DNA from: Polyangiaceae bacterium
GTDB lineage: Bacteria; Myxococcota_A; Polyangia; Polyangiales; Polyangiaceae
Assembly (NCBI GenBank): GCA_947475525.1
Contig: CANJMI010000004.1
Span: 1 to 64,000 of the forward strand
DNA length: 64,000 bases
Reading direction: 5' to 3'
The position numbers and the translations under genes are program-made. The notes below the pieces were generated by a model that saw only the letters and a program-made list of their open reading frames with translations, was not told where the DNA came from and did not search any database. Below are positions 1 to 19,560 of the stretch, one piece after another (the first letter of the stretch is position 1; every line of letters starts with the position of its first letter).

Positions 1-500
1 AATTGCACACGTTTATGGCTGTAACGCTCGATTGTTACATTCCGGCCGGCGTGGTGCTCGTTCAAGGCAAGAACATGAAAGAACCATGGTGCCTTGCCAC
101 TTCACGTACCGACAGCACCGCCGCAGAGCTTGTTAAAATATACGGTCGGCGCTTCACGATCGAGGAGACCTTCCGTGACACCAAGGACATCCACTTTGGA
201 CTCGGGCTCTCGGCAACACACATCGGCGACGCTGCACGGCGCGACCGACTCCTCTTTGTCGCTGCGATAGCACAGGTCATGCTGACCCTCCTTGGCGCGG
301 CCGGAGAGCGTTGTGACCTCGATCGCATGTTGAAGGCCAACACGAGCAAAGAACGCACAATGTCGCTTTATAGTCAGGGGCTCTATTGGTATTCAGCGAT
401 CGCCGCGCTTTTCGAGGATCGTCTCGTCTTGCTCATGACGGCGTACGCCGATGTCCTAAAGAACCATGCGATTTCTTGCGAGCTTTTTGGGATTATTTGA
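1..500 (+). mobile_element. IS4-family transposase, 5'-truncated by window edge
   Basis: The reading frame is open from the left edge to a TGA at 498-500, so only the C-terminal part of a DDE transposase is present. The segment YGRRFTIEETFRDTK carries the IS4-family YREK spacing (Y-2-R-3-E-6-K), whose Glu is the third catalytic acidic residue. The downstream helical region is of ordinary length for the end of such a protein. Base composition here is lower in GC than the rest of the window, consistent with acquired DNA. The upstream catalytic Asp residues and the left inverted repeat lie outside the window, so it cannot be judged whether the element is intact. No matching terminal repeat could be assigned on the right. 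Confidence 0.8.
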
Positions 501-541
501 GGGGATGGGTCAGCCCATTGACATGAAGCAGTAAACGTGCT

Positions 542-13203: not shown

Positions 13204-14547
13204 TCACACCTTGTTGCGAGCTTGAACGATCGCGAGAAACGAGCGACCGCCGAGCTCGTCTTCGGTGAGACCGGTCCGTGCGAGATCGGCCGCATCGATC
13301 GCCCCCGCGGCGTAGGCACGCAAGAAATAGTTCAGCAGACCTTGGCCCGTAGCCGCATCGTCGAAGACGTTGCCGACGAGGGACGCGCGCGCGGCTTCGC
13401 CTACGAAGTGCTTGAGTCGTTCGGTCGAGAGTTCGAGGCCTTCGAGGAAAAACGCGAACGATGCGGCGTAGCGAATCGGCAACTGGCCGGGGTGCAAATC
13501 CCAGCCTTGGTAAAATCCTCCCGCGAGCGAGTGACGCACGTTGGCGTAATGAACCCGCCACGCCCCGTGCACGACGCGCCGATTTTCGGCGAGCTCTTCG
13601 GGCGTAAGCGAGTCGCCGCGATGAGGCGGGGTTGGCAGGATGTTCGTGGCGCCGTCGGAGAGTCGGATTCCGCTTCCCGAAAACGCGACGAGCATCAGTT
13701 GCTTCGCGAATTCGCAGGATGGATGCGTCATGTGCTGCGCGGGCGCTGCGATGCCGAGCGACGCCGTGTAGTCGTAGGTGCCGAAGTGCACCGCGACGCA
13801 GCGACCTTTCGCGGCTCGCGCGAGGAGCGGAAGTAGGCTTCTCCCTCTGTGGTCGAAGAGCGCTTGCCCAACTTCGATCATCAACTCGAGCTTGAGTGTG
13901 CCGGCGGCGAGGGCATTCACTTGCTCGAGTTGCTCGAGCACTCGGACGAGCGTCTTGACCTGCGCGACCGAGACGACCTTCGGCAGCGTCACGACGAACC
14001 CTTGGGGGAGCGTCCCCGAGTTTGCCTCGAGCAGCGTTGTCAGGAACAGATCGAGCGTGCGTACGGCGCGGTGTTTCTGCTGTTCACTCAGGCTCTTGAC
14101 GCGAATGCCGAGGAAGGCTGGCAGGCTTGCGGCGCGCATCCCAAAGGCGACCTCGCGGGCCGTACGCTCCGCTTCCGCGTCCTCTTCGGCGTCGCTACGA
14201 ATGCCGAAGCCGTCTTCGAAGTCGATGCGGAAATCCTCGACGGGCTCGCGTTCGAGTTTCGCGATCACCCGTGAATAAACAGCCTCCGCGAGATCGATGC
14301 CGCCTTCGAGGCCCACCGCCAAGGCGAGCGCGCGGGCATCCGGCGCGTACTCACGAAGGTGAGCGAGGGCGAGCTTTCCGAGCTTGCTCGGCGTCGTCGC
14401 TTTGAAGAGCTGCGCGCCGCCATACACGGTGTGGAGCGGTTGACGTGCGATGCGGTCTCCGGGGTACGCCGTCGTGAATCGTTGATTCGAGCGAACGAGC
14501 TTACCGAGGAGGGTGGCGGCGGCGCTGGGCGTGAGGGAGGTCGGCAT
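13204..14547 (-). CDS. DUF6986 aldolase/citrate-lyase-like protein of the purine operon
   Basis: The 447-residue protein looks like the DUF6986 family, which has an HpcH/citrate-lyase-type TIM barrel and is sometimes labelled 'phosphoenolpyruvate kinase' without clear basis. Metal- and acid-binding segments of this fold are visible: RIDFEDGFG near 110, LELMIEVGQALFD, and AVHFGTYDYTASLGI. It is the last of four minus-strand genes of uric-acid breakdown, 48 bases after hiuH. From my recollection such genes recur beside allantoin-degradation genes. A role in disposing of ureidoglycolate or glyoxylate carbon would fit but is inference only. Confidence 0.75.
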   Translation of the reverse strand: MPTSLTPSAAATLLGKLVRSNQRFTTAYPGDRIARQPLHTVYGGAQLFKATTPSKLGKLALAHLREYAPDARALALAVGLEGGIDLAEAVYSRVIAKLEREPVEDFRIDFEDGFGIRSDAEEDAEAERTAREVAFGMRAASLPAFLGIRVKSLSEQQKHRAVRTLDLFLTTLLEANSGTLPQGFVVTLPKVVSVAQVKTLVRVLEQLEQVNALAAGTLKLELMIEVGQALFDHRGRSLLPLLARAAKGRCVAVHFGTYDYTASLGIAAPAQHMTHPSCEFAKQLMLVAFSGSGIRLSDGATNILPTPPHRGDSLTPEELAENRRVVHGAWRVHYANVRHSLAGGFYQGWDLHPGQLPIRYAASFAFFLEGLELSTERLKHFVGEAARASLVGNVFDDAATGQGLLNYFLRAYAAGAIDAADLARTGLTEDELGGRSFLAIVQARNKV

Positions 14548-14595: not shown

Positions 14596-14946
14596 TCAGC
14601 TGCCTCGGTAAGTCGAGTAGCCGAACGGGCTGAGCAGGAGTGGGATGTGGTAGTGCTGTTCGAGGTCGCACACCTCGAAGACGATCTGCACGTAGGGGTA
14701 GAACGCAGGCGTCTTGTGCTCCGAGAAGTAGGCGTTCGTGTTGAAGCTCACACGGTAGCGGCCGGCCTCGAGCGTGCGCCCCGCGAGGAGCGTCGGGACG
14801 CGACCATCCTCGTTGGTGATCGTGCCGCCAAGCTTCTCCCACGAGCCACCGCGCTCGAACTCGATGCTGACTGGAACGCCGGCCGCAGGACAACCCCGGC
14901 TGGTGTCGAGGACGTGCGTCGTGATGGGACTGCGAGGTAGGGTCAT
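14596..14946 (-). CDS. hiuH: 5-hydroxyisourate hydrolase (transthyretin-like)
   Basis: Hydrolyses 5-hydroxyisourate to OHCU in urate breakdown. The 116-residue protein has the diagnostic features of the family: His11 in ITTHVLDTSRG near the N-terminus, Arg45-type residues in the strand DGRVPTL, and the C-terminal tetrapeptide YRGS. Length is normal for bacterial HIUases. The ATG at 14946 overlaps the stop of the upstream allantoicase/UraD gene by 4 bases. An in-frame extension further upstream is rejected because it lies wholly inside that gene. Confidence 0.95.
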   Translation of the reverse strand: MTLPRSPITTHVLDTSRGCPAAGVPVSIEFERGGSWEKLGGTITNEDGRVPTLLAGRTLEAGRYRVSFNTNAYFSEHKTPAFYPYVQIVFEVCDLEQHYHIPLLLSPFGYSTYRGS

Positions 14947-16499
14947 GGGGTGTCCATCGCTTCGTCGAGCCATTTTTTTAGACGTACGCTCGTGATTTTC
15001 ACGTGCTCGCCGGCCGCCACGCGGAGTTCGTTTTCGGGGGAATTGTCGATGCGTTCTTCGAGCAGCGCAAGCATCTCGGCGGCGCTTTTGCCCGTGGCGC
15101 AAACGAGGAAAACATGGCCGAACCTCTCTTTATACGTGCGATTTCCTTGGGCGAGCGCCTGCAGCGTGACCTCACTCGCCGCGGCGACGCCGGCTTGTTC
15201 GCCAGCCGACCACGTGGCCGTTGCCGCGTAACGCTCGCGGAGCAACGCGATGTCGGCGCCGATCTCCGGGTGGTGAGTGAACGCCTCGCGGTAGTCCCCG
15301 TCGCCGAGCTTCCACCATGTCTCCTCGGACGCGCCGAGCACGTGACCGAGGCTTGTGAACGGCCGGCGCTTTGCCATCGCCTTCGCCCAACGCGTGGAGC
15401 CGCAGCACCGCATCAACGCCGCTACCGCCTCGTCATTCGAAAGCGCATTGAGGACGCCGAGGCCGCCCCGTTTCGTTGCGGGATCGAGGCTCGCGGCGCG
15501 GCCCCATGCGCGCATGCGCGAGATACCTCCACAGGGAAAAATGCGCAGCCGCAGGTGGGTGAAGGGTCCACGGTTCGCGAGCTCGGCGAAGCTTTGCACA
15601 TTGTCCGCGCGGAGCTTCTGTGTCGTGAGCACCGGCTGCCAATCGAGCTCGGTCCCGTCGACGTTCGGCACGAGCGCGGTCACGGGCGCGTCCGGCCACG
15701 CAAGCCCGTCGACGGCCGCTCGATCGGGGTAATTGCCGTTGAAGAATGCGGTCGAAATCTCGAGCTCGTCGAGCAGGCCTGGCGTGCACAGCTTCACGAT
15801 GATCCACTCGTTGCCAGGTGCGCGCCGTCGTCGTGTCTCCCAGCCGCCGCCCATGTTTTCGGCGGGGGTCGGGAGGATCAGGTTCACCATCGGCGAGAAA
15901 AACATGTCGCTGCACGCGACCGAGCGGCCGCCGTTCGTGACGCCCATGAGATCGATGCGCCCTTCGGGGACCGCGACCGGCGCGGGAACGCCGAGGACCT
16001 TCAAGCGCGCGACGCCGCCGTCGGGGTAGATGCGCAACCGCACGTGCGTGAAGGGTCCGCGGTCCGACAGCGCGAACAAGTTCTGCGAGCCGAGCTTCAG
16101 CGGAGACGCCTCCAAGAGTTCGGTCCACTCGACCTGGTCGCGTAAGGCCTCGGGGCTCGTGTCGCAGTCGACATCGCAGGCCTCGAGGGAGGCGAACGGC
16201 GGGTGGTTGCCTAGAAAATGATTGGTGTCGATGTCGACGCCGTGGAGCTGTCCGCGCACGCCGAGTTGCACGATGCACCAGTCGTGTCCGGGCACGCGTT
16301 TTCGGCGGGACTCCCAGCCGTCCATCCATTTACCCCGCTCGGTGTACTTCTCGGGGATGAACACGCCGCGTCCCGGCTCGATCAGATTCTCCTTCTCGGC
16401 GAAGAAATCGTCGCTCGCGAGGAGCACCTTGCCGCCCACGGTTCGTGCCGCGAGATCCACCAGTCCCGCGAATGCCGCGGCGCCTTCTTGTGCGCTCAT
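14943..16499 (-). CDS. Bifunctional allantoicase / OHCU decarboxylase
   Basis: The 518-residue fusion covers two steps of the pathway. Residues 1-340 are allantoicase, made of two repeated jelly-roll halves (paired motifs WESRRKRVPGHDWCIVQLG and WETRRRRAPGNEWIIVKL; RGPFTHVRLRIYPDGG and RGPFTHLRLRIFPCGG), which splits allantoate to ureidoglycolate and urea. Residues about 348-518 are OHCU decarboxylase (UraD), with CGSTRWAKAMAKRRPF, HHPEIG at 409-414 containing the conserved His, and the GHVFLVCATGKSAAEML helix. Together with HiuH this gives stereospecific conversion of 5-hydroxyisourate to S-allantoin. Overlaps of 4 bases with allB and hiuH indicate coupled translation. The fused order is not the pathway order, since AllB acts between them. 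Confidence 0.93.
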   Translation of the reverse strand: MSAQEGAAAFAGLVDLAARTVGGKVLLASDDFFAEKENLIEPGRGVFIPEKYTERGKWMDGWESRRKRVPGHDWCIVQLGVRGQLHGVDIDTNHFLGNHPPFASLEACDVDCDTSPEALRDQVEWTELLEASPLKLGSQNLFALSDRGPFTHVRLRIYPDGGVARLKVLGVPAPVAVPEGRIDLMGVTNGGRSVACSDMFFSPMVNLILPTPAENMGGGWETRRRRAPGNEWIIVKLCTPGLLDELEISTAFFNGNYPDRAAVDGLAWPDAPVTALVPNVDGTELDWQPVLTTQKLRADNVQSFAELANRGPFTHLRLRIFPCGGISRMRAWGRAASLDPATKRGGLGVLNALSNDEAVAALMRCCGSTRWAKAMAKRRPFTSLGHVLGASEETWWKLGDGDYREAFTHHPEIGADIALLRERYAATATWSAGEQAGVAAASEVTLQALAQGNRTYKERFGHVFLVCATGKSAAEMLALLEERIDNSPENELRVAAGEHVKITSVRLKKWLDEAMDTP

Positions 16500-17854
16500 G
16501 CCGAATGTCCTCTTCCGAGCAGGGGGATGCCGCGCGGTCCGCCGATGTGGGAGCCGCGCTCGAAAATCTTTTGGCCAGCGAGCCAGGTGCCGTGCACGCG
16601 ACCGCGAAACTCGCGACCGAGGTAAGGCGAGATCGCGTGGCGCTGAAACAGGTGCGCGCTCGTCAGGGTAAAGCGCTCGTCAGGGTCCCAAAGTACGAAA
16701 TCGGCCGCGAATCCTGGGGCGATTCGACCTTTTCTCTCGCCGAGTCCCGCCAGCTCCGCGGGTTTTCGGCACATCCAGCGCGCGACGTCTTCGAGCGACG
16801 CGCCGCGTGCCGAGGCCTCCGTCCAAATCGCAGGCAAGCCCCACCCGAGCGAAGCGATGCCGCCCCACGCGTCCATGAAATCTCCGCGCTCGGGGACTTT
16901 CAGCTCGGGGGTGCAGGGCGAGTGATCGCTGACGACGAGGTCGATGATGCCGCTCGAGAGTCCACGCCACAGGCCCTCGCGGTTGTGCTCTTCGCGAATC
17001 GGCGGCGCGCACTTGAACGCGGTCGCACCGTCGGCGATGTCTTCGGCGCGTAGGCAAAGATAGTGCGGGCACGACTCGACGGAGAACGGCAAGCCCTCGC
17101 GCTTCGCGTCAGCGATCATCGGTAACGCGCCCGCAGCCGAGAGGTGAACGACGTGGACGCGGCACTCGGTTTCGCGGCACAGGCGCACCATCCTTGCGAT
17201 GGCCGCCTCCTCCCACGCGGCCGGACGCGAGGCCAGGTAATGCGCGTAGGTTGTGCGGGGCGACGAGGGCTCGGAGGTCGCGAGCTCGAGCTCCGCGTGC
17301 ACGAGGAGGGGCATGCCCGAATCGCGAAGCTCGGGCATCGCCGCGCGGAGGTGCTCTTCGCGGCAGTCCGGAAAATCATCGATGCCGGAGTGAACCATGA
17401 AGGCTTTGCAGCCGAGCGCGCCCGCTTTCGCCATGGCGGTCAGCTCCCCACCGCGTGAATTCGCGGGGACGACTCCACCCCAGAATCCGACGTCGACCCA
17501 TAGTTTTTGTTGGGTCGCCGCGAGTTTTTGTCGCAAGGCGTCGGCGCTCGTCGTCACCGGAATGCAATTGAGCGGCATGTCGACGAGGGTCGTCACGCCT
17601 CCGGCCGCGGCCGCGCGCGTTCCCGTCTCGAAGCCTTCCCACTCGGTGCGACCGGGCTCGTTCAGGTGCACGTGGCAATCGACGAGGCCCGGCATGAGCA
17701 CGAGGTCGCCGAGGTCTTCGACGTCGGCGGCGAGGGCGCGCGGGTCACTCGGCGCGAGGACCGCCGCAATCGTTCCGCCGTCGAGCACGACCACCCGATC
17801 GCTGAGGCCGTCGTCCCCGAGCACGCGCTTGCTTCGGATCGCTCGTTCGTTCAC
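16496..17854 (-). CDS. allB: Allantoinase AllB
   Basis: Cyclic amidohydrolase opening the allantoin ring to give allantoate. The 452-residue product carries the complete binuclear metal set: His61 and His63 (DCHVHLNEPG), Lys150 in GCKAFMVHSG as the carbamylated lysine, His186 (LLVHAE), His237 (HVVHLS) and Asp310 (VVSDHSPC). Length and order match AllB rather than dihydropyrimidinase. It starts with GTG at 17854, first gene of the minus-strand urate operon, and is divergent from the PuuD-like gene, with 101 bases between them that probably hold both promoters. No regulator gene is adjacent. Confidence 0.95.
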   Translation of the reverse strand: MNERAIRSKRVLGDDGLSDRVVVLDGGTIAAVLAPSDPRALAADVEDLGDLVLMPGLVDCHVHLNEPGRTEWEGFETGTRAAAAGGVTTLVDMPLNCIPVTTSADALRQKLAATQQKLWVDVGFWGGVVPANSRGGELTAMAKAGALGCKAFMVHSGIDDFPDCREEHLRAAMPELRDSGMPLLVHAELELATSEPSSPRTTYAHYLASRPAAWEEAAIARMVRLCRETECRVHVVHLSAAGALPMIADAKREGLPFSVESCPHYLCLRAEDIADGATAFKCAPPIREEHNREGLWRGLSSGIIDLVVSDHSPCTPELKVPERGDFMDAWGGIASLGWGLPAIWTEASARGASLEDVARWMCRKPAELAGLGERKGRIAPGFAADFVLWDPDERFTLTSAHLFQRHAISPYLGREFRGRVHGTWLAGQKIFERGSHIGGPRGIPLLGRGHSA

Positions 17855-17955: not shown

Positions 17956-19560
17956 GTGAGTGACCTTATCGAGCTGCTAAGCGTTGCCCTCCGCTGGACG
18001 CATGTGTTCGCCGCCATTCTTTGGGTGGGCGCGACGTACCTGTTCAACTTCATGGAGAAGAGTCTCGAGCGCGATGCGTCAACGCCGGAGAATGTGCGGG
18101 GCCGCCTGTGGATGGTGCACGGCGGCGGCTTTTACTTCGTCGAAAAGCAGAAGCGGCTCGAGGGCAAGTACGGCACGCTCCACTGGTTCAAGTACGAGTC
18201 CGCCACCACCTGGGTCAGCGGCGCCATTCTGATAGCGGTGAGCTATTACCATGGCGGATTGCTCGTCGAGCCGGGGCAGAGCTTCAGCGCCGGCGCGATT
18301 GCCGGGCTACTGACGATCTTTGGCGGCTGGCTCATCTACGACCTCTTGGTTCGCTCGCCGATTGGACGAAACGAGCTGTTCGTCGCGGCTCTTGGCTGGG
18401 TCTCGTTCGTGGCTGCGAGTTATTTTCTGCGTGCGTGGCTCTCGCCGCGGGCGGTGCTGATCCACATCGGCGCGATGATCGGCACGATCATGGCCGCAAA
18501 CGTCTGGATGCGAATCCTTCCGACGCAGCGCAAGATGCTCGCCGCTCTCCTGGCGGGCAACGAGATCCCGCCCAATCTCTCCGCCACCGGACCGCTGCGC
18601 TCGAAGCAGAACAGTTACCTCGCGATCCCGCTCGTTTTGCTGATGATCACGAACCACGCGCCGATGATCGTCGGCAGTCCGCGGATGCATTGGTGGATCG
18701 GCGGCTTGTTCCTTATCGGCTTCGCTGTCGCGCGGGTGTTTCGCGGTCCGACTCACGCCGGCGAGGGCGCGCCCGCGAAGAACTCGGACGGGACAATGGT
18801 GCATGCGGCGCTCGCGCTCGGGCTGCTTGCGGCGTCGTTCGTCATCGGCTTCCGCGCGGCGGGCAAGACGGTGGTCGCGTCCCCTCCGGTCGCTCCGCCA
18901 AAGAAAGCGGCGACCGTAGGCGCGCCCGCAAAAAACGGCGTTTTTGGAGCGGCGACGCTTCGCGGCACGGTGACGCTCGTGGGTGCGGTGCCCGAGCCCG
19001 AGCCTTGGGGCGGCGCAAAGAACGACGAGTGCCGCTCCTTGCGCGAGGCCACGCTCGCACGCGTTCGCGCGCAAGGCGGCAAGCTCGCCGACGTGTTCGT
19101 CTACGTGTCGGCAGGCCTACCCGAGGGGACCTACGATGTGCCGAAAACTCCGGTGGTCCTCGACCAGAAGAACTGCGAGTTCACCCCGCGCGTCTTTGGT
19201 TTGGTCGCCGGGCAGGCGCTTCGCCTCGGCAACAACGATGCCTTCCTCCACAACGTGAGCTCACCCGAATTCAATCAAGCCTTCCTCCGCGGAGCCACGC
19301 GCGACGTTGAGCTCGAATCGCCGGGCGTCGTCACGACGATCAAGTGCGACGTCCACCCGTGGATGCGCGCCTACGCCGGCGTCGTCGAGCACCCGTTTTT
19401 TGCGGTGACGGGCGAAGACGGCTCGTTCGAGATAAGCACACTTCCCGATGGTGAACTTACCATCGCCGCGTGGCATGAAACACTCGGTACGACCGAAGCG
19501 CGGGTCCAAGCCACTGCGACCAAGCCGCGGACAATCGAGCTCACGCTCGCGTCGAAATGA
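17956..19560 (+). CDS. puuD: PuuD-type membrane urate oxidase with C-terminal cupredoxin domain
   Basis: The N-terminal part (about 300 residues from the GTG at 17956) is the integral-membrane urate hydroxylase domain of PuuD, which makes 5-hydroxyisourate: LRWTHVFAAILWVGATYLFN, GGGFYFVEKQKR, LHWFKYESATTWVSG, and about eight helices. Known PuuD proteins end in a cytochrome c domain. Here no CxxCH is present. Residues about 332-534 instead contain a cupredoxin-like fold with a type 1 copper ligand set, His432 (FLHNV), Cys464, His467 and Met470 (KCDVHPWM), then a short carboxypeptidase-regulatory-like strand unit (GSFEISTLPDGEL). The GTG is chosen because it starts just before helix 1. A TTG at 17878 would add 26 polar residues. 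Urate oxidation with electron transfer to copper is inferred. Confidence 0.88.
   Translation: MSDLIELLSVALRWTHVFAAILWVGATYLFNFMEKSLERDASTPENVRGRLWMVHGGGFYFVEKQKRLEGKYGTLHWFKYESATTWVSGAILIAVSYYHGGLLVEPGQSFSAGAIAGLLTIFGGWLIYDLLVRSPIGRNELFVAALGWVSFVAASYFLRAWLSPRAVLIHIGAMIGTIMAANVWMRILPTQRKMLAALLAGNEIPPNLSATGPLRSKQNSYLAIPLVLLMITNHAPMIVGSPRMHWWIGGLFLIGFAVARVFRGPTHAGEGAPAKNSDGTMVHAALALGLLAASFVIGFRAAGKTVVASPPVAPPKKAATVGAPAKNGVFGAATLRGTVTLVGAVPEPEPWGGAKNDECRSLREATLARVRAQGGKLADVFVYVSAGLPEGTYDVPKTPVVLDQKNCEFTPRVFGLVAGQALRLGNNDAFLHNVSSPEFNQAFLRGATRDVELESPGVVTTIKCDVHPWMRAYAGVVEHPFFAVTGEDGSFEISTLPDGELTIAAWHETLGTTEARVQATATKPRTIELTLASK

Follow-up and report, generated by a model that had tools for sequence, protein, structure and literature searches.

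The window analysed here, a stretch of 64,000 nucleotides of DNA from a Polyangiaceae bacterium, very likely encodes a membrane-bound urate oxidase, a relative of PuuD in the Urate_ox_N family, in which a fused periplasmic blue-copper acceptor of the amicyanin type replaces cytochrome c; copper loading and urate turnover are inferred, as is the downstream acceptor. Computation established the domains, the fold, the conservation of the ligands, the gene context and the recurrence of the architecture. A sequence-only reading of the same DNA had proposed that a cupredoxin stands in for the cytochrome c of a membrane urate oxidase, and the fold, the ligand alignment and the recurrence in urate clusters now support the proposal; the role of copper as the relay for electrons remains inferred.

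In its one detailed description, PuuD (COG3748) was defined as DUF989 joined to cytochrome c, with a C-terminal CxxCH called strictly conserved, a topology of eight transmembrane helices with both termini outside (N-out/C-out), and oxidation of urate on the cytosolic side (Doniselli et al. 2015, PMC4562309). With the PuuD cytochrome c urate oxidase, the fusion protein shares an eight-helix Urate_ox_N domain, the N-out/C-out arrangement, a C-terminal periplasmic one-electron carrier, and a location in a urate gene cluster with no other uricase found; unlike PuuD, it has no CxxCH, and its carrier is a cupredoxin with a carboxypeptidase-regulatory-like sandwich instead of a cytochrome c. By the features tested it belongs to the PF06181 family and probably works like PuuD, its urate oxidation activity being inferred. 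No description of a copper form of PuuD was found in a literature search that could not reach most subscription papers, and the fusion is apparently an undescribed, recurrent form of a known urate oxidase.

Architecture of the fusion gene

The gene is an uninterrupted frame with a GTG start at 17956 and a stop codon at 19558-19560, and has the following features:

17956..19560, + strand: PuuD-cupredoxin fusion gene, 534 amino acids, GTG start; the start matches the N termini of relatives
17965..18813, + strand: Urate_ox_N (DUF989) domain, residues 4-286 (PF06181, E 5.9e-71)
18868..18945, + strand: flexible Pro/Ala-rich linker, residues about 305-330 (pLDDT <50 at 298-321)
18946..18981, + strand: first strand of a predicted carboxypeptidase-regulatory/transthyretin-like sandwich, residues 331-342 (structural alignment to carboxypeptidase D, span 333..534)
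19030..19032, + strand: Cys359, conserved non-ligand cysteine (alignments), with a possible disulfide to Cys407, a putative pairing
19087..19389, + strand: cupredoxin domain, residues about 378-478, core 397-478 (profile matches to amicyanin/blue copper proteins; Foldseek and VIA-align; pLDDT 93-98)
19174..19176, + strand: Cys407, conserved non-ligand cysteine (alignments)
19249..19251, + strand: His432, predicted copper ligand (76/76 cupredoxin rows; aligns with the amicyanin His of HNV)
19342..19365, + strand: ligand loop KCDVHPWM with Cys464, His467 and Met470 (each in 76/76 cupredoxin rows; amicyanin C-x2-H-x2-M spacing)
19393..19557, + strand: carboxypeptidase-regulatory-like tail, residues 480-534 (PF13620, E 4e-5, under the Pfam cut-off; structural match with Z 11.8)

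The PuuD motifs previously attributed to the N-terminal half, GGGFYFVEKQKR and LHWFKYESATTWVSG, are both found in the frame, and the four ligands His432, Cys464, His467 and Met470 lie in its translation exactly where they had been placed. The whole 534-residue frame contains no CxxCH, as had also been claimed, and by this criterion the fusion falls outside the cytochrome c PuuDs as described. One detail is added to the type 1 copper domain described earlier: the last ~55 residues are a second piece, carboxypeptidase-regulatory-like and not cupredoxin. A search near the gene gave no promoter consensus, and the terminator-like sites show no clear excess over chance. No match in plasmid records spans 80% of the query; those listed cover the membrane domain only, at <60% identity.

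The membrane domain

The match to PF06181 scores 239.7 bits, against a curated cut-off of 26.9, and covers profile positions 3-290 of 295. Eight transmembrane helices are predicted, counting one that follows the Urate_ox_N domain, in an N-out/C-out orientation, and the loops contain 16 lysines and arginines inside versus 5 outside; since the eight helices and the inside excess of Lys/Arg fit the published topology of PuuD, the copper domain is predicted to be periplasmic. At 37 sites that are near-invariant across 76 cytochrome c PuuDs, the fusion keeps 30 residues, including His16, His55 and His234, and less divergent fusions keep 34-37. The genus to which the window belongs departs from the cytochrome c PuuD invariants in having Gln for His218, Thr for Ser27, Ala for Thr223 and Tyr for Pro72, and the loss of these residues means that substrate or rate may be altered. 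Residue 218 (18607-18609) is His in all 76 cytochrome c PuuDs and in a split relative (L052). The structural model has low confidence in the N-terminal part (block values of about 38-78 in pLDDT), and a path for electrons between urate and copper can therefore not be traced.

The copper domain

Pfam finds only sub-threshold carboxypeptidase-regulatory matches at the C terminus of the fusion. When nine C-terminal halves (the window's and those of eight relatives) were aligned, the four ligands as well as Cys359 and Cys407 were invariant, and the resulting profile matched solved structures of a blue copper protein (5fc9, 3e-8), amicyanins (4e-8) and CuNiR (2e-6). The first two matches, at 3e-8 to 4e-8, bear out the copper domain that had been postulated, and in the profile alignments the HNV histidine and the C-x2-H-x2-M loop superpose on amicyanin's own. 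His432, Cys464, His467 and Met470 align one-to-one with His53, Cys92, His95 and Met98 of amicyanin. Each of the four ligands is kept in all 76 aligned cupredoxin rows. Taken together with the PF06181 match, the profile matches and the ligand conservation put the observation far beyond chance. NCBIfam, searched at E up to 1, gave no match for the fusion, the amicyanin equivalog TIGR02657 included, and the genome's stand-alone cupredoxin paralogue scores 19.7 against the TIGR02657 cut-off of 110.2.

A structure model built on an 82-row alignment has pLDDT mostly of 92-98 over residues 331-534 (93-98 in the cupredoxin region; block means of 75 and 86 near 351-370); a single-sequence prediction of the entire fusion protein (pLDDT 38.5) was set aside. 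The top Foldseek matches of the modelled domain include CuNiR (5e-6), amicyanin (2e-5), purple cupredoxin and plastocyanin, and VIA-align superposes about 80 residues (397-478) on cupredoxins with Z of 9-11.5 and rmsd mostly of 1.2-2.1 Å. The cupredoxin fold inferred earlier for the C-terminal region is thus predicted with confidence by the model, Foldseek and VIA-align. The site itself is amicyanin-like rather than plastocyanin/azurin-like, plastocyanin and azurin being the proteins with which a comparison had been suggested. The flanks (about 329-342 and 480-534) jointly match the transthyretin-like domain of carboxypeptidase D (Z 11.8), and the cupredoxin therefore appears, in the model, to be inserted into a carboxypeptidase-regulatory-like beta sandwich. 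Common to the fusion and amicyanin (PDB 1aac, 1id2) are the cupredoxin fold, the His, Cys, His and Met ligands and the short C-x2-H-x2-M loop, whereas only the fusion is joined to a membrane oxidase and set in a second beta sandwich, and identity is about 16-20%. Membership of the cupredoxins is met both by the fold of the predicted structure and by the conserved His, Cys, His, Met set. Judged by alignment and model, the C-terminal region is a type-1 copper cupredoxin of the amicyanin type; copper binding itself is inferred, there being no metal data.

Urate degradation genes in the window and the genome

The fusion gene is divergent from four genes of the window, and Pfam and NCBIfam searches agree with the earlier recognition of urate-degradation genes there:

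16496..17854, - strand: allantoinase AllB (TIGR03178, 554.9 bits)
14943..16499, - strand: allantoicase fused to OHCU decarboxylase (PF03561, PF09349, TIGR02961, TIGR03180)
14596..14946, - strand: 5-hydroxyisourate (HIU) hydrolase (TIGR02962, E 2e-41); the start is the ATG just ahead of the conserved domain, and the open frame extends to 15102
13204..14547, - strand: DUF6986 protein (PF22484, E 3e-169)

A single open frame matching both allantoicase and OHCU decarboxylase is also found in L036 and several other relatives. The DUF6986 protein, which is aldolase/malate-synthase-like, recurs in the urate clusters of L036, L186, L196, L198, L201 and L203; a role in purine breakdown is therefore probable, with glyoxylate or ureidoglycolate as conceivable substrates.

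PF06181 occurs only once in the genome (5.15 Mb, 98.9% complete), in the fusion itself, and there is no second PuuD. The uricase Uox (PF01014) is absent genome-wide, in keeping with the earlier remark that no soluble uricase was visible, and nothing in the genome exceeds the cut-off for HpxO; an alternative urate oxidase, which would have refuted the proposal, was accordingly not found, although the search did not extend to HpyO. The genome thus has HIU hydrolase and OHCU decarboxylase without Uox or an above-cut-off HpxO, HpyO again being left aside. Proteins with FAD_binding_3 domains are present. The only molybdopterin hydroxylase found, which is of the xanthine dehydrogenase type, scores below the equivalog cut-offs, and a search of the genome for a xanthine/uracil permease gave nothing. 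Cytochrome_CBB3 domains are present, which rules out an organism without c-type cytochromes.

Recurrence of the fusion

PF06181 matches occur in 187 of the 379 genomes sampled from the phylum, and many of these matches are short forms. At the loci examined, the tree counts 76 distinct membrane domains with CxxCH, and the cupredoxin fusion is encoded in nine genomes of the sample: the window's, G313 (L036), G251 (L043), G347 (L047), G047 (L063), G077 (L064), G015 (L077), G030 (L078) and G074 (L082). A tenth fusion came from a scan of public genomes, in a Bdellovibrionales MAG (L186), with five urate-cluster genes downstream on the same strand. Urate genes are near eight of the ten: those of the window, L036, L186, L196 (G047), L198 (G015), L201 (G251) and L202 (G347), and that of L200 (G074), which has allantoinase only. 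No urate genes were seen in the stretches examined of G030 and G077, the latter on a short contig. At L203 (G374), two divergent neighbouring genes inside a urate cluster encode the parts separately, one a PF06181 protein without a fusion partner and the other a cupredoxin that bears a lipoprotein signal, and separate trees place both as close kin of the window's two parts. The swap of haem for copper is recurrent, in fused and in adjacent-gene form, in urate clusters. In G015 and G030, an SCO1/SenC gene lies 20-30 bases upstream of the fusion on the same strand (the G030 copy being confirmed by Pfam); the other PuuD loci examined gave no match to the SCO proteins of G015, G030 or the window's genome.

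Cupredoxins and PF06181 proteins outside urate clusters

Relatives of the copper domain are encoded in 582 genome stretches, 80 of which were fetched (L116-L195). They are mostly stand-alone exported proteins from many phyla, and at 58 of the 80, genes for cytochrome oxidase, CtaB or SCO lie no more than 6 kb away. The genome of the window has a stand-alone paralogue of its own within the operon of its only detected COX1, in the order unidentified protein, paralogue, UbiA (CtaB-type), SCO, COX3, COX4, COX2, COX1, COX3, cytochrome c. Because the relatives and this paralogue sit among cytochrome-oxidase genes, the usual role of the stand-alone family is probably respiratory electron transfer, an inference from context. 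The stand-alone proteins (e.g. G000:C15:115531-116148 (L217), L117, L120) have the same full-length pair of domains as the fusion, invariant ligands and mostly 37-46% identity to the window's, but they are separate secreted or lipoprotein genes, and none of those fetched is near the urate genes searched for. Pfam detects the copper part of this exported cupredoxin/carboxypeptidase-regulatory-like family poorly.

Loop-less or short PF06181 genes directly adjoin cupredoxin genes at L129, L040/L204, L140, L150, L151, L166 and L175, in Myxococcota, Binatota and Omnitrophota, with no urate genes nearby. Short four-helix DUF989 proteins and loop-less PF06181 proteins have the membrane core and the type of cupredoxin partner in common with the fusion, but lack the WMVHGGGF loop, are unfused and have no urate genes in view. 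Since loop-less forms pair with cupredoxins away from urate genes, such pairing alone is no proof of a urate substrate.

Predicted electron transfer and alternatives

Urate would be oxidised within the membrane domain, and electrons would cross one by one to the type-1 copper on the periplasmic side, which may hand them to the respiratory chain, either through cytochrome c or directly to the COX-type terminal oxidase of the genome; the oxidation product would be processed by the cytosolic HIU hydrolase, OHCU decarboxylase, allantoicase and allantoinase. Copper loading, urate turnover, the direction of electron flow and the downstream acceptor are inferred. The copper domain might instead scavenge superoxide or radicals or be an accessory, with the membrane part itself reducing oxygen or quinone. 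A scavenging role for the PuuD cytochrome c domain was discussed as an alternative and left open (Doniselli et al. 2015, PMC4562309), and the PF06181 proteins that are short or loop-less have no fused redox domain. However, haem c has been exchanged in related urate clusters for another one-electron carrier and not for a non-redox domain, and the stand-alone relatives sit with terminal oxidase genes; the recurrence of the swap in the same gene context argues for an electron relay, and scavenging has only a small chance of being the function. The substrate may also have shifted in the window's protein, with urate oxidation left to an enzyme that has escaped recognition, for instance a flavoprotein of the HpyO type. 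The divergent clade of the window and L036 (with L052) outside other PuuDs, the replacement of His218 by Gln, the FAD_binding_3 proteins and the loop-less paralogues that accompany cupredoxins away from urate genes would all be compatible with such a shift, for which the chance is nevertheless slim: the fusion retains the loop motifs and is divergent from a urate operon, its split relative is inside one, the less divergent fusions retain 34-37 of the 37 residues, uricase is absent, and HpxO is below cut-off.

In the absence of metal data, and with a carboxypeptidase-regulatory-like tail of a kind that commonly serves as a structural module, the cupredoxin fold could conceivably be a structural domain retained without copper or with another metal. 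This is highly improbable in view of four ligands that are invariant in 76/76 rows with amicyanin spacing, and of the copper-insertion gene that adjoins the fusion in two relatives. As many of the genomes are draft assemblies, an artefact of assembly or annotation was also considered, but it has practically no chance of accounting for an uninterrupted frame whose architecture is repeated in nine other assemblies, one of them of the same genus with a largely common gene order, and this recurrence refutes it.

The swap also offers a clean test of the relay, because a blue copper site signals its own redox state near 600 nm. Recognition of PuuD by CxxCH overlooks likely members of the family. The fusion links purine breakdown to the exported cupredoxins, a widespread family whose genes adjoin those of cytochrome oxidases, and a urate oxidase expected to release no H2O2 and to have no need of its own for cytochrome c maturation would be of practical interest.

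History of the fusion

In the tree of membrane domains, the window, L036 and L052 form a clade (support 100/99) outside the other true PuuDs, and beyond it are the loop-less and short PF06181 proteins, mostly paired with cupredoxins and not linked to urate genes. The tree of cupredoxins again groups the window, L036 and L052 (support 99); because both trees do so, the membrane and copper parts share a history in this clade. The remaining fusions branch among the cytochrome c PuuDs or near their base, and the best tree requires three exchanges between copper and cytochrome c. An AU test does not reject a single clade of all cytochrome c PuuDs (p 0.42), so a single exchange is possible. It is conceivable, but rather doubtful, that the copper-coupled form is the older one, with PF06181 oxidases and exported cupredoxins, at first the products of separate adjacent genes, becoming fused, cytochrome c then being swapped in within a spreading lineage, and the clade of the window representing the pre-cytochrome stage; this copper-first history is attractive but unproven. 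Five PuuD relatives in the tree (L039, L088, L092, L097, L105) have two CxxCH motifs, apparently through a second cytochrome c domain.
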